Source of the DNA: Rubricoccus marinus
Lineage (GTDB): Bacteria; Bacteroidota; Rhodothermia; Rhodothermales; Rubricoccaceae
DNA length: 64,000 bases
NCBI RefSeq assembly: GCF_002257665.1
Contig: NZ_MQWB01000001.1
Location: 3,014,619 to 3,078,618 of the forward strand
Reading direction: 5' to 3'
Part shown: positions 34,370 through 40,037 of the stretch, one piece after another
How the letters are laid out: every line of letters starts with the position of its first letter
How positions within the stretch are numbered: the stretch's first letter is position 1
Translations under genes and position numbers: made by a program
Notes under the pieces: model-generated
Databases searched by the model: none
Told to the model about the DNA's origin: nothing
Seen by the model: only the letters and a program-made list of their open reading frames with translations

Positions 34370-36073
34370 CTACGAGCGCCGCCCATCGTTGCTCAGCCAC
34401 GTCAGAATCCACCGCCTCAGCCACTCATCCTCACCGGGCACAAGCGGGACCGCGCCGATGCCGACCGTCGCGTGCGCCCGCCAGAGGCGGCTGTTCTCGA
34501 ACGTCGGCGTCGCATGGAACGGGAAAAGCGCTGCGGCGGCCTCCACGAGAGGCTCGCCCTCTTTGTTTACGATGGCGTCCCGGTACCGGTGCAGGTCTCC
34601 GAGTGCCGCCTCTGGCGGACCCGCGGCGCCGTGGCGCATGGCGTACGCAGTGGAATCGTCGCGGCGGTACTTCGCGTCGAGCACGGCGCGGCGTACCGGC
34701 TGACCGGGAGCACGCAGCGTGAGGAGCACGTCGGGCCGCTGCGCCAGAAGCCCGGGCGGTCCTGGGAAACGCGGCTCATAAGCAATGTCAACGCGGACTC
34801 CGTTGCCGTCCAGCCTGATCGCATTCCGCGTGCCGCGACCGATGCGGACGCGAGCGCCAGAGGCCGCGAGTCCAAACGGCTCTTCTGGAGCAGGCGCGCC
34901 CAGAACATCGGCGAGAACCTGCACCACGCGGAGCACGGCCCACGACTCGTACAGCCGACCGGTTCCCAGCCACGCTGTCGCCACCTCCCCCGCGCCAACA
35001 TCCAAGCCTCGCTCTAGGGCCTGAAGCGCGTCGAATACCTCCCGGTACACAGGCCGAGTCCGGAGCACGAGCGGGGCCTTCCGCATAGCTGGTGCTCCCA
35101 CCGCTTCCGCCAGAGGCCTCTGGCGTCGAAACCGGCGAAGGCCAGCGGCGATCTGATCCAGGCTCTCGCGGAGCGCGCGGCGCCTACCGGTCTCTGCGTA
35201 CGGGTGACGAGCTTCCTCACGCGTGATCTGCGCCAACACGCTCAAAGCGAGGTCCAGCCTCTGGCGAATCCAGCGGTGCGCAGCGATGTCCTCGTTTTCG
35301 CCGAGCACGCGGACCGGCATCCGACTCTGTACCGGCACTCCCCGGACGTGCGTCCATTCACCTCTCCCCTTCGACCGCCGGATCGCGCGAACGCTCTCGG
35401 CGTCGCCGCGCAACCGCGCCGCCGGACGGACGTGCTCCCGCCGCGACAGCTCAAACGCCGGGCGGCGCTCGATGCTCGCCAGAGGCCCTTCAAGCTGATG
35501 GACGGCGTAGCGGAGCACGGTGACCCAGGCAGGAATCGACGGCTCATTGTGTAACCCGCTCTGCTCATCGGCTGCGCCCCACCCGGCGAGCGCGGCACCC
35601 CGCCACGCGGCCTCTACGCCCCCACGCATCGCGGCAACGTCGGCGCTGCTCACCTTCGCGGGAACAACCCGGAGCACGACCTCAGCCTCTGGCGTCCCGC
35701 CGACCGTAAACGCGAACACGCTCAGCCCCGCTTCATCGCGGACGCGGACGGAGCCGTGGACGGTTCGCCCTCCATTTGCTGAAACGAGGCCCGAGACTTG
35801 GCCAGGATCTCGATGTAGCACGGCCACGGGTTCGCCTGTCCGGCTCTCCACCAAAAGAGACAGGATGCGCTCTTCGGGCACCGCCACAGGAATTGTCACC
35901 TCTCGCGTCGCGGAATACTTCTCACCAGCGGCCCACACCGTTCCACTTCCGCGGAGCACACGAACGTGGCTCTCCCCTGCCTCTGGCGAGGTACCGCTCC
36001 ACGTGATCCGGATCCGCGTCGTTTCAACGACGAGGGTCCCGGTTTCGGGAGCACGAGCATCAGCGCCTCTCAC
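34370..36073 (-). CDS. McrC-like protein: DUF2357 region with PD-(D/E)xK nuclease domain
   Basis: 567 residues from GTG 36073, which begins 2 bp after the McrB stop; the frame continues upstream inside mcrB, but that part looks like shadow sequence. The N-terminal half (about 1-300) is beta-rich with DUF2357-like character. The C-terminal part carries the nuclease fold: RLYESWAVLRVVQVLADVLG, RPDVLLTLRAPG with catalytic Asp, and AVLDAKYRRDDSTA with the D-x-K pair, then LGDLHRYRDAI. McrC proteins pair with McrB GTPases to cut modified or foreign DNA. Together with the EVE-McrB gene it makes a two-gene type IV restriction-like system. Assignment rests on domain pattern and gene pairing; the target is unknown. 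Confidence 0.8.
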   Translation of the reverse strand: MRGADARAPETGTLVVETTRIRITWSGTSPEAGESHVRVLRGSGTVWAAGEKYSATREVTIPVAVPEERILSLLVESRTGEPVAVLHRDPGQVSGLVSANGGRTVHGSVRVRDEAGLSVFAFTVGGTPEAEVVLRVVPAKVSSADVAAMRGGVEAAWRGAALAGWGAADEQSGLHNEPSIPAWVTVLRYAVHQLEGPLASIERRPAFELSRREHVRPAARLRGDAESVRAIRRSKGRGEWTHVRGVPVQSRMPVRVLGENEDIAAHRWIRQRLDLALSVLAQITREEARHPYAETGRRRALRESLDQIAAGLRRFRRQRPLAEAVGAPAMRKAPLVLRTRPVYREVFDALQALERGLDVGAGEVATAWLGTGRLYESWAVLRVVQVLADVLGAPAPEEPFGLAASGARVRIGRGTRNAIRLDGNGVRVDIAYEPRFPGPPGLLAQRPDVLLTLRAPGQPVRRAVLDAKYRRDDSTAYAMRHGAAGPPEAALGDLHRYRDAIVNKEGEPLVEAAAALFPFHATPTFENSRLWRAHATVGIGAVPLVPGEDEWLRRWILTWLSNDGRRS

Positions 36074-36075
36074 CG

Positions 36076-37794
36076 CTACGCCCAGAACGAGGCAACACCA
36101 TCGGCCAGCACACCCTCCGCGATCCGCGCGAGGCGAGCCGCCGTCCTCGGGAACCGCGCAGACGGGAGCACGGCCGGTCTCCCCTCGGACTCCCATGCCT
36201 CAACCTGCACTACAGCAGACCTCTCGCGATCCTGCTCGCTCTCGCCAGAGGCCCACGCGAGAAGGAGGAGCACCGCCGAACGCGCCGCCGCTCCGGCGCC
36301 CTCAATTCTCGGGAGCACCTTCATCAGGAGGGCAAGGTCCAGCGGGTCTACAGACTCACCGTCGCGCGTCCGGAACGCCTCTGGCGCTTGCATCGCATGG
36401 AGCACGAACAGCGCGACCTCGTCCCGCGTCCGGTAGCCGATGCCCAACCCTGCCGGCGAGAGGATCGCATCGGCCTCGGTGACGGCCTGTACTGCGCGAC
36501 CAATGGCCTCCCGTTGCTCATCACGGATGTCCGTGAGAGCAGAGAGCCGGAGCGCCAGAGGTTGCCACGCGGAGACAGGCCACCGTGACGCCTCCGGGAC
36601 CTGCTCAGAGATGTCAGAGGTGGTCCAGACGTGAAGGTTGGGCGCATCGAGTTCGAGCGTGAACGCCCGGTCCAGCACTTTACGGCTGAACGCATGCGCG
36701 CTCTCGTCCACGTTTACCGTCCCGACGAGACCGAGGTTGGGCCCCATCCGCACTGCCTGCCACACGGCATCCTCTGGCGCAAGCGACTCGCTCACTAGAG
36801 GAGGGGATTCAGCGCCGCCAGAGGCCTGCGCCGCGGCTGGCGTCCGCAACTCCATGCGGCTCAGGACTTCGGCTAGGTAGTGCTCCGGTCGCGCGAGGTT
36901 CATCTCGTCCAAGATCAGAACGTGCTGCCGCTCTGGGTCTTCGCCAGAGGCCCGGGCCGCCCGGAGCACGCCACCCGCCTGGAAGCGGCCATCGAGTCCT
37001 CGGTAGCCCAACGTCTCGGACGGATCGGTCCAGTCAGGACGCACCGGGAGCACGTCGGCACGTGCTCCCGTAGCCTCGGCCACGAGCAGCGGCAGCCGCG
37101 TTTTCCCGACGCCCGTCACACCCGCTAGGAGAACAAACGGCCGGGTCCGCAACGCGACCACGAACGCCGCCAGTTGCCACGGTGCGTACACGAACCCGCG
37201 CGCCTCCACATGCGCGATCACGTGCTCCATCGCCTGGGCGCGGTCCCAGCTCGTATACATCGCAAGAGGCTCCGCGACGGCCGGCTTCGCGACGGGCCGA
37301 GGCCTCTGGCGCGTCTCGCGGACCGCCTCCACCATCTGCATCAGCGCCTCTGGGTTCTCGCCCGCTCGCGCAGCGATCAGGAACTCCAAGACCTTTCCGT
37401 CCACCGCCGGGAGCGCATGGAGCACGCGCTGCGCCACGCGGCGGAACTGCCGGTCGAGCGTGGGCTCGTCCGGGTACTGATCCAGCACGCTGAGGTGCGG
37501 CGCGAACCCCTCGTACGGTACCCAGGCTTCTTGCGGGAGCACCGTCAGGGTCCGCACGCGGACGCGGTGCGGCAGGTGTTTGCCCAGCACGAGCGAAGTG
37601 CTGTCCTCGAACGCCACGCCAGAGGCCTCGACGAGCGCCGCCAGCGTGCGGCTACCCGGGATGTACGCGAAAATGCGGTCCCCCGGACGCACCTCCTGAA
37701 GCGCCTTCCGCCCCTGCATGCGGAGCGCGAACGTCTCGGCGCGGGCAAAGGCCGCGAGCGCGTCGGGGGGAACGGACCAGAGCCAGTACTGCAT
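36076..37794 (-). CDS. McrB-like AAA+ GTPase with N-terminal EVE domain
   Basis: 572 residues from ATG 37794. The N-terminal ~110 residues match an EVE domain (MQYWLWSVPPDALAAF ... VRPGDRIFAYIPGSRTLAAL ... FEDST), a PUA-like fold that reads modified bases. After a linker, the AAA+ module has Walker A GVTGVGKT (225-232), the McrB-type Walker B ILDEMNLARPEHYLAEVLSR (about 300) and sensor GTVNVDESAHAFSRKVLDRAF (about 363). NxxD in the last motif is the GTP-specific signature. McrB forms GTP-driven rings that activate McrC. Divergent from uvrB, and followed immediately by the McrC-like gene. The longer in-frame start at 37893 was rejected because EVE begins at MQYWLW. Confidence 0.85.
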   Translation of the reverse strand: MQYWLWSVPPDALAAFARAETFALRMQGRKALQEVRPGDRIFAYIPGSRTLAALVEASGVAFEDSTSLVLGKHLPHRVRVRTLTVLPQEAWVPYEGFAPHLSVLDQYPDEPTLDRQFRRVAQRVLHALPAVDGKVLEFLIAARAGENPEALMQMVEAVRETRQRPRPVAKPAVAEPLAMYTSWDRAQAMEHVIAHVEARGFVYAPWQLAAFVVALRTRPFVLLAGVTGVGKTRLPLLVAEATGARADVLPVRPDWTDPSETLGYRGLDGRFQAGGVLRAARASGEDPERQHVLILDEMNLARPEHYLAEVLSRMELRTPAAAQASGGAESPPLVSESLAPEDAVWQAVRMGPNLGLVGTVNVDESAHAFSRKVLDRAFTLELDAPNLHVWTTSDISEQVPEASRWPVSAWQPLALRLSALTDIRDEQREAIGRAVQAVTEADAILSPAGLGIGYRTRDEVALFVLHAMQAPEAFRTRDGESVDPLDLALLMKVLPRIEGAGAAARSAVLLLLAWASGESEQDRERSAVVQVEAWESEGRPAVLPSARFPRTAARLARIAEGVLADGVASFWA

Positions 37795-37961: not shown

Positions 37962-40037
37962 ATGGCGACGATTGCCCGCATCGACTCTCCTTTCAAGCTG
38001 GACACCCCGTTCCGGCCCACCGGCGACCAGCCGCGCGCCATCGCGGAGATGACCGAGGGGCTGTTCCGAGGCGACCAGTACCAGACGCTTCTGGGGGCCA
38101 CAGGTACCGGCAAGACGTTCTCGCTCGCCAACGTCATCCAGAAGACGGGCAAGCCGACGCTCGTCTTCTCGCACAACAAGACCCTCGCGGCGCAGCTCTT
38201 CGCTGAGTTCCGGACGTTCTTCCCGAACAACGCCACGGAGTTCTTTATCTCCTACTACGACTACTACCAGCCCGAGGCCTACATCGTCTCCTCGGACACG
38301 TACATCGAGAAGGACATGGCGATCAACGAGGAGATCGACCGGCTGCGGCTTCGCGCCACGTCGGCCCTCGTGAGTGGCCGGCGCGATATCGTGATCGTGG
38401 CCAGCGTGAGCTGCATCTATGGGCTCGGCAACCCGGAGGAGTACAAGGCCCGCGTGATCCAAGTCAAGCCCGGCGAGACCGTGGACCGCGACGAGCTTCT
38501 GCTCAAGCTGGTCAACGTCTTCTACACCCGCAACGACATCGACTTCGCGCCCGGCACGTTCCGCGTCCGCGGCGACCAAGTGGAAGTCTTCCCGGCCTAC
38601 TTCGAGGACCAAGCTTACCGCATCACGTTCTGGGGCGACGAGGTCGAAAAGGTCTCGCGCATCGACCCGGTGACCGGGAAAGAGATCGCGAGCGAGGGCG
38701 ACCTCCTGACGATCTACCCCGCCAAGCACTTCGTGACGCCGCAGGACCAACTCGACCGCGCGCTTGCCGGCATCGAAGAGGAGCTCCGCTGGCGCCTCGC
38801 GATCCTCCGCAACGAGGGCAAGCTGGTGGAGGCGCAACGCCTGGAGCAGCGGACGCTGTTCGACCTGGAGATGATCAAAGAGATCGGCTACTGCTCCGGC
38901 ATCGAGAACTACTCGCGCCACATGGACGGCCGCGAGCCCGGTACTCGCCCCTCCACGCTGCTGGATTACTTCCAGATGAGCTACGGCGACGACTGGCTTC
39001 TGGCGGTGGACGAGAGCCACGTCAGCATTCCGCAGGTGCGCGGGATGTACAACGGCGACCGTGCGCGCAAACTCAGCCTGGTAGAGCACGGCTTCCGTCT
39101 GCCAAGCGCGATGGACAATCGCCCGCTCACCTATGAGGAGTTCGAGCGCTTCCACCATCAGGTCCTCTTCGTCAGCGCCACGCCCGCCGACTACGAGCTC
39201 GAGAAGTCCGACGGCGTCGTCGTGGAGCAGATCATTCGCCCGACAGGCATCCTCGACCCCGAAGTGGAGGTCCGCCCCGTCGAAGGCCAGATCGACGACT
39301 TGCTCGGCGAGATCCGCCTGCGCGTCAAGGCCGGCGGGCGCGTGCTCGTCACCACGCTCACCAAGCGCATGGCCGAGGACCTCACCGACTACCTCGACTC
39401 CTTCGGCGTGCGCGTGCGGTACCTCCACTCCGACATCGACGCGCTGGAACGCGTCGACATCCTGCGCGACCTGCGCCTGGGCGCGTTCGACGTGCTCGTC
39501 GGCATTAACCTCTTGCGCGAAGGCCTCGACCTCCCCGAGGTCAACCTCGTCGCCATCCTCGACGCCGACAAAGAGGGCTTCTTGCGCTCCGAGCGCTCGC
39601 TGATCCAGACCGCGGGCCGCGCCGCGCGCAACGCGGACAGCGTGGTCATCCTCTACGCCGACCGCATCACGGACTCCATGGCACGCATGATGGAGGAGAC
39701 GAACCGCCGCCGCGAGATCCAAGCCGAGTACAACCGCGAGCATGGCATCACGCCGACGACGGTCACCAAGTCCATCGACGAGATCCGCAAGGGCACGCTC
39801 GTGGCGGACCACAAGCCGGAGCCCGAGGAGAACCCGACGCCGACGTACTACTCCGGCCCAAGCCAGCTCCCCAAGGTGGCCGACCCCGTGGTGAAGTACC
39901 TCACCGACGACCAGAAGCTGGACCTCGTGGCGCAGCTCACCCGCGAGATGGACGCGGCCTCGATGAACCTGGAGTTCGAGAAGGCCGCCGAACTCCGCGA
40001 CAGCATCGCCCAGATCGAAGCCACGCTCGCCGCCTGA
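37962..40037 (+). CDS. uvrB: UvrABC excinuclease subunit B
   Basis: 691 residues; UvrB receives lesions from UvrA and recruits UvrC in nucleotide excision repair. N-terminal [11 protein letters not shown], Walker A GATGTGKT (45-52), the damage-probing beta hairpin [20 protein letters not shown], Walker B DESH near residue 350, and helicase motif QTAGRAARN near 548 appear in order. The C-terminal UVR motif ([20 protein letters not shown]) binds UvrC. ATG 37962 matches the family N-terminus. The coding region contains no full copy of the 10-bp element, only a near match (CTTCTGGCGG near 38998), and uses strictly GC-ending codons, suggesting tight constraint. Confidence 0.98.

Follow-up and report, generated by a model that had tools for sequence, protein, structure and literature searches.

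The locus considered here raises the question of whether a type IV restriction pair can be a lasting resident of a chromosome; such systems are usually regarded as patchy, swapped defence genes. Two adjoining genes of Rubricoccus marinus, one mcrB-like and one mcrC-like, lie on the minus strand of a stretch of 64,000 nucleotides (contig NZ_MQWB01000001.1, positions 3,014,619–3,078,618), and this whole stretch is called the window. The pair is read as a chromosomal type IV restriction system, with a probability of roughly 0.7, and by analogy with known systems it would cleave modified DNA. The parts are of known kind. What stands out here is the apparent inheritance beside the uvrB gene, retention of both genes together when unlinked, and the crowding of one DNA word, GGAGCAC, inside the pair.

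The gene pair

The initial annotation, made from the sequence alone, described an EVE domain fused to an McrB-type GTPase and, 2 bp further on, a DUF2357/PD-(D/E)xK partner. The layout found is:

34370–36073, minus strand: mcrC-like gene, DUF2357 plus PD-(D/E)xK nuclease, GTG start, 567 amino acids (aa)
36076–37794, minus strand: mcrB-like gene, EVE plus AAA+ (NxD branch by motif), ATG start, 572 aa

Positions 36074–36075 form the 2-bp gap. The start of mcrC is uncertain because the protein starts about 10 residues later in the majority of homologues; an alternative ATG at 36196 would give 608 aa and overlap mcrB. The two genes are more than chance open reading frames (ORFs), since in 114 Rhodothermales genomes full-length EVE-McrB is found in 23 (any match in 25, two of these weak and partial) and McrC in 24, namely the same 23 plus G313 (77% complete).

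The EVE-McrB protein

37372–37794, minus strand: EVE domain, residues 1–141, predicted by fold superposition
37099–37122, minus strand: Walker A GVTGVGKT, residues 225–232; G225, G228, G230 and K231 invariant in 23/23 rows
36898–36918, minus strand: Walker B LILDEMN, residues 293–299; D296, E297 and N299 invariant in 23/23 rows
36703–36714, minus strand: NxD signature N361-V-D363-E364; N361, D363 and E364 invariant in 23/23 rows

The rows are those of the main McrB alignment, 23 proteins of Rhodothermales, and G225, G228, G230, K231, D296, E297, N361, D363 and E364 are likewise invariant in a wider McrB alignment (23 rows). The protein passes the Pfam threshold for AAA_5 (26.2 bits, cut-off 22). 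Its predicted model, built with 23 sequences, has a mean predicted local distance difference test (pLDDT) score of 85.8. Residues 177–390 superimpose on E. coli McrB (6ut6_D) with Z = 17.6. Residues 1–141 superimpose on PH1033 (Z = 18.2, root-mean-square deviation (rmsd) 1.9–2.0, 131 residues), on MJECL36 (Z = 17.0) and on the YTH domain of YTHDF2 (Z = 14.8). Judged from this model, the N-terminal part of McrB has an EVE/PUA fold.

Structure prediction had been named as a check in the initial annotation, and both the EVE and the McrB folds of the fusion are supported by it. The McrB-type core stands as described; its motif is corrected to the shortened NxD form (N-V-D-E) in place of NxxD.

The McrC protein

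35030–35755, minus strand: DUF2357, residues 107–348, Pfam 46.6 bits
34514–34957, minus strand: PDDEXK_7 nuclease, residues 373–520, Pfam 77.4 bits
34730–34735, minus strand: nuclease site P447-D448, invariant in 22/22 and 17/17 rows
34670–34678, minus strand: nuclease site D466-A-K468, invariant in 22/22 and 17/17 rows
35657–36022, minus strand: possible Ig-like N-terminal sandwich, residues 18–139; Ig/filamin matches with Z of about 5.5–7.5, suggestive

Both Pfam scores are over their cut-offs, in agreement with the partner first described. The catalytic motifs PDVLL and LDAKYR, which were said to be kept, are located (RPDVLL from residue 446, LDAKYR from 465), and E376, P447, D448, D466 and K468 are invariant in all 22 Rhodothermales rows as well as in a wider set of 17. 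The alignment holds 22 of the 24 homologues of the order, omitting G306, which is cut by a contig end, and G313 (locus L083). The McrC nuclease site is evidently under selection. The McrC model superimposes on Thermococcus gammatolerans McrC (6ut7_G; Z = 11.2, 323 residues, rmsd 11.5), on the restriction enzyme BsoBI (Z = 9.5) and on E. coli McrC (6hz4_M; Z = 8.5, rmsd 11.0). The predicted models match EVE proteins and McrB, and less firmly McrC.

Placement among known McrBC systems

A census divides McrB proteins by their signature motif, and the NxD branch includes the coiled-coil nuclease tandems (CoCoNuTs) and methyltransferase-associated systems (PMC11090510). The shortened motif is usually followed by E or D, and an Ig-like sandwich starts the McrC of non-CoCoNuT members too (PMC11090510). 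Placed by its motif, the pair appears to be an NxD-branch McrBC. It falls outside the CoCoNuTs because no coiled coil, zinc ribbon or partner gene is found: the longest helices in the predicted models are 24 (McrB) and 25 (McrC) residues, there are no cysteines in either protein, and no HEPN or extra nuclease gene is present among nine window neighbours scanned with Pfam. The comparison with CoCoNuTs that had been proposed is thus negative, although the NxD motif is shared and an EVE-superfamily domain is found in some CoCoNuT types. No extra nuclease gene is required, since the McrC nuclease residues are intact. A DNA methyltransferase gene, as in the methyltransferase-associated group, was not found among the same nine neighbours.

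The pair resembles the non-CoCoNuT NxD systems (PMC11090510) in the motif followed by E, the tandem McrB/McrC order, the DUF2357 plus PD-(D/E)xK partner and possibly the Ig-like McrC start. It differs from them in the EVE reader in front, the lack of a methyltransferase neighbour here, the apparent vertical descent and the GGAGCAC crowding in five genomes. The McrC is also short, about 550 aa, compared with about 820–850 aa in the nearest tandem relatives outside Rhodothermales. EVE-McrB is given as the commonest EVE architecture in defence, present in nearly 300 genera, in the portion of Bell et al. (2020, PMC7641849) consulted. The domain pair there is identical; the NxD motif, a fixed chromosomal place and unlinked genes are not described in that portion.

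Compared with E. coli K-12 McrBC, the folds of the AAA+ core and of McrC are alike, but the reader is EVE, not DUF3578, and the motif is NxD, not NxxD. T. gammatolerans McrBC is alike in McrC fold and in carrying an EVE-superfamily (YTH) reader, reported in the same portion of PMC7641849 as a binder of N6-methyladenine in DNA. Among PADLOC candidates, McrB matches PDC-M26A (132.7 bits, best stretch residues 184–318), whereas McrC barely matches PDC-M26B (11 bits, E-value = 0.017).

Relatives outside the order

A scan of genome contigs confirmed at least 573 McrB relatives, of which the best 80 were analysed. The EVE domain is covered by the alignment in four of these 80 (L107–L110), all in Rhodothermales, and the other 76 align to McrB only from residue 96 or later. 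Four distant McrB relatives on viral contigs show no EVE match. A McrC domain match is found in 81 of 84 loci, the best 80 plus the four viral ones; those without it are L109 and L110 (both Rhodothermales) and L126, cut by a contig end. Outside Rhodothermales, GTPase-core relatives have McrC alongside in 79 of 80 loci (76 genomic, four viral), and the front domain is MrcB_N in four of seven McrB proteins scanned with Pfam. On a shared McrB/McrC engine, the reader domain has been exchanged.

Distribution and inheritance in Rhodothermales

A draw of 296 genomes across the phylum gave 23 McrB matches, 10 of them full length, all in Rhodothermales, and 12 McrC matches, 10 in Rhodothermales. Among the 23 genomes of the order with full-length McrB, the two genes adjoin in nine and are separated by 0.6–0.9 kb in seven, by 11.5 kb in G179 and by 423 kb of one contig in G030. 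They are on different contigs in the remaining five (G096, G219, G305, G306 and G321), and the split in G321 may be an assembly break. Thus mcrB and mcrC are retained together even where unlinked, up to 423 kb apart.

The pair also shares a chromosomal place, next to:

37962–40037, plus strand: uvrB, divergent neighbour of mcrB, with Pfam UvrB domains (context, not counted as part of the system)

mcrB is divergent from uvrB at a distance of 0.1–8.1 kb in 19 of the 23 genomes (2.7 kb in G317), and uvrB was not found in the 7–20 kb around mcrB in G305, G306, G219 and G096. Trees of McrB, McrC and UvrB were compared over the 17 genomes that supply usable rows for each protein; they concur on families and backbone, and some tips are open or differ. 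The path between the window and the same-genus genome G324 measures 0.43 for McrB, 0.86 for McrC and 0.083 for UvrB, so that McrB and McrC change much faster. Because McrB and McrC co-occur and their trees match one another as well as that of UvrB, the pair apparently descends vertically in Rhodothermales. The shared place by uvrB and the agreeing trees disfavour a mobile cassette. That the pair stands alone, as first described, holds for methylase and defence genes among the neighbours scanned but not in the sense of a loose cassette.

Proposed working and alternative explanations

In the proposed working, modelled on characterised systems, a modified base in foreign DNA would be flipped out by the EVE domain. 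Modified phage DNA, named as the likely target in the initial annotation, is a putative substrate. McrB subunits would assemble into a nucleotide-driven ring that would spend GTP, and McrC would dock through its DUF2357 part, stimulate hydrolysis and cut the DNA with its PD-(D/E)xK site. The characterised EVE reader VcaM4I takes 5-methylcytosine (5mC) or 5-hydroxymethylcytosine and has an aromatic base pocket of P24, W82 and Y130, as given in an excerpt of PMC7897488. Seven genomes in the window's own family carry the pair; five of them have a C5-methyltransferase match (PF00145), and plain 5mC in every context is thus unlikely to be a lethal target there; in the window's own genome, searches for PF00145 and PF01555 gave no match.

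Several observations weigh against a restriction system of this kind. The Pfam EVE score of McrB is 15 bits, under the cut-off of 23 (18.6 bits in the homologue at L108), and the EVE call therefore rests on the fold. The AAA+ core matches a MoxR-like ATPase (Z = 17.4), NorQ (15.5) and dynein and MCM (about 15) nearly as well as McrB; since other AAA+ proteins are this close and the fold alone is insufficient, the identity of McrB is taken from its partner gene and motifs. The McrC model is middling (pLDDT 77.1, 17 sequences), its superpositions have an rmsd of about 11, and the single Foldseek match with E < 0.001 is chain A of the YdjA-YdiS model 9a5m, at a template modelling score of 0.17–0.19. 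According to the 2024 census by Bell et al., no NxD McrB had been characterised, GTPase activity included (PMC11090510). McrC is absent from 90 of the 114 genomes, among them two of the nine in the window's own family (88% complete each). As uvrB is linked to mcrB, UvrB is no independent yardstick, unlike the family labels.

The place by uvrB, the apparent vertical descent and the co-retention of unlinked genes would also be expected of a co-opted housekeeping pair that serves the chromosome, for example by removing abnormal bases in concert with nucleotide excision repair. A precedent is PcdA, which belongs to the McrB family, carries EVE domains and has been co-opted for cell division, as described in part of PMC10602043. 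Such a role is unlikely here: the pair is missing in the 90 genomes just mentioned, McrB and McrC change far faster than UvrB, and uvrB, at distances of up to 8 kb, is transcribed divergently and not together with mcrB. A system directed at RNA, in which the EVE/YTH-like domain would read modified RNA, is suggested by the motif common to the pair and the CoCoNuTs, by the YTH-like domains present in most type I CoCoNuTs (in the section of PMC11090510 concerned) and by the match of the EVE model to the RNA-binding YTH domain of YTHDF2. However, the pair has no coiled coil, its lack of cysteine means no zinc ribbon, no HEPN or other RNase gene is found among the nine neighbours, and the McrC nuclease residues are intact, and this explanation is held to be highly unlikely.

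Patchy presence in Rhodothermales, and the frequent mobility of such systems in general, would fit an ordinary horizontally moving defence cassette that sits here by chance. Against it stand the same place by uvrB across several families, the agreement of the trees, the housekeeping neighbours and the absence of a mobile-element gene among those scanned, which make it extremely improbable. A chromosomal type IV restriction system remains the preferred reading. With a co-retained pair that looks vertically inherited across several families, it can be tested how a cell tolerates a nuclease directed against modified DNA, and because Rhodothermales has cultured members the NxD class can be tested at the bench.

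The GGAGCAC word inside the pair

34370–37794, both strands: GGAGCAC/GTGCTCC, 21 copies within the two genes by word count

The window contains 42 copies of GGAGCAC or its complement, and half of them are within the 3.4 kb of mcrB plus mcrC. The background is 421 copies in 1.11 Mb (about a quarter of the genome), or 0.38 per kb with a maximum of 6 per 3.4 kb. In 1.17 Mb scanned as 2,305 windows, its clustering is unequalled by any other 7-mer (log-likelihood 38, compared with 22 for the next distinct word). Relatives carry 15 (G324), 13 (G325), 12 (G326) and 12 (G327) copies in the two genes, and the maximum in 400 kb of G325 is 5 per 3.4 kb. Taken together, the five genomes have 73 copies inside and 39 in the fetched surroundings, a 12.3-fold excess by length; single-letter variants reach at most 2.2-fold. 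The stretch between mcrB and mcrC has 0–1 copies in five genomes.

Synonymous-codon shuffling of the window pair gives a mean of 4.93 and a maximum of 10 in 300 shuffles (observed 21), and gene-by-gene shuffles give P ≤ 0.01 in all ten genes of the five genomes. As a control, eleven other window ORFs, not all of them verified genes, carry 8 copies compared with 6.8 expected. The strand split is 49 sense and 24 antisense. In frame, 43 of the 73 copies read GTG-CTC-C (Val-Leu codons). Val-Leu codon use is only partly the cause, as copies outside that frame exceed expectation too; for McrC this holds in all five genomes (P ≤ 0.0065), for McrB in three (P ≤ 0.0135; P = 0.10 and 0.42 in the others). 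Sites shared between the window and G324 are 6 of the window's 11 in mcrB and 2 of 10 in mcrC; the partial sharing implies that copies turn over.

The case for the word has counts against it. The excess is absent in the close relative G328 (3 compared with 1.7 expected) and in G321, three genomes of family f53, G030, G179, G050 and G155. When 382 long ORFs are ranked by their most excessive word, McrC is fifth, below four ORFs with 5–7 copies, and the 22 ORFs listed do not include McrB. G008 has 4 copies compared with 1.4 expected. The strength of the case is one word filling both genes in five genomes.

Word crowding is not a habit of NxD mcrBC loci: in 69 other loci the strongest log-likelihood is 20.6 (L111) and the rest are at most 16.8. 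The L111 locus, mcrBC of a Pelotomaculum metagenome-assembled genome (L111:9317–13666), has 9 copies of GCCAGGC inside and none in its flanks. A link to a methyltransferase was also rejected, as none of PF02384, PF01555, PF20473 and PF00145 tracks GGAGCAC across the nine family genomes; 33 loci from these searches have 0–1.29 copies per kb. Most other word clusters of the genome are within the synonymous-shuffle range. No account of GGAGCAC/GTGCTCC was found in the literature, judged by titles and abstracts, and, among the papers listed, nothing on such a pair in work on McrBC or uvrB in Rhodothermus, Rubrivirga and Rubricoccus, judged by titles.

The crowding arises by selection or by a mutational process, and as a DNA-level feature it suggests regulation, self-targeting or an unusual mutational process. 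It is quite unlikely that the crowd is a working part, its copies serving as sites where the system's own genes are acted on by the EVE-McrB ring or by a host enzyme that modifies GGAGCAC. If so, a GGAGCAC mark on the chromosome would lead the machinery to silence or destroy its own mcrB and mcrC, a built-in safety switch with which a modification-dependent nuclease could be kept permanently in the chromosome.

Neighbouring genes

The nine neighbours scanned with Pfam are a TonB receptor, a rhodanese, SufE, GDPD, a TPR protein, UvrB, an epimerase, a CarbopepD_reg_2 protein and FecR. They include no methylase, defence, HEPN or other RNase, or mobile-element gene, and PADLOC gives no match on 10 nearby window ORFs, as the initial annotation had it for methylase and defence genes.

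A GNAT acetyltransferase family occurs at the mcrBC locus in eight genomes of the window's own family and f53 (among them loci L093, L092 and L095). The gene is on the strand opposite mcrB in G317, G318 and G321, and the one GNAT checked with Pfam scores 28.8 bits (cut-off 25.4). In seven genomes it was considered as a third system gene in the 0.6–0.9 kb gap between mcrB and mcrC. It is not counted as a part, because in the window and in G316 mcrB and mcrC adjoin, with no GNAT gene between them.

Other repeated words in the genome

The 10-mer CGCCAGAGGC is present 224 times in the window, 112 per strand, where an order-2 Markov model expects about 1.5. Genome-wide there are 14,176 copies in 4.43 Mb, denser than one per 320 bp, compared with 61 for the reversed control. 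The same-genus G324 has 99 (control 101) and seven other family genomes have 8–77. Read through proteins, the word gives ASGA, PLA/PEA and LWR. CGCCAGAGGC is a species-specific iterated word, like the cyanobacterial HIP1, which is tied to methyltransferases in a passage of PMC4390886.

A long ORF of at least 952 aa (L197:17144–20000; C1:1217144–1220000) has 13 copies of CGTCGAC compared with 4.85 in shuffled sequences (maximum 10 in 300). We take it to resemble a DUF4011 defence helicase. About 3 kb beyond it is a match to an MmeI-type methyltransferase (C1:1223113–1224000). In the searches for methyltransferase families, the genome gave one match of MmeI type and one to N6_Mtase on contig C15.

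Local clusters of TAGCCAGTA and AACCCAGAA are found in L032 (C1:3075000–3094000), and similar words, AACTCCGAA and AACCCCGAA, cluster in L089 (G326) and L091 (G328). The clusters of these four words are probably repeats within a gene.

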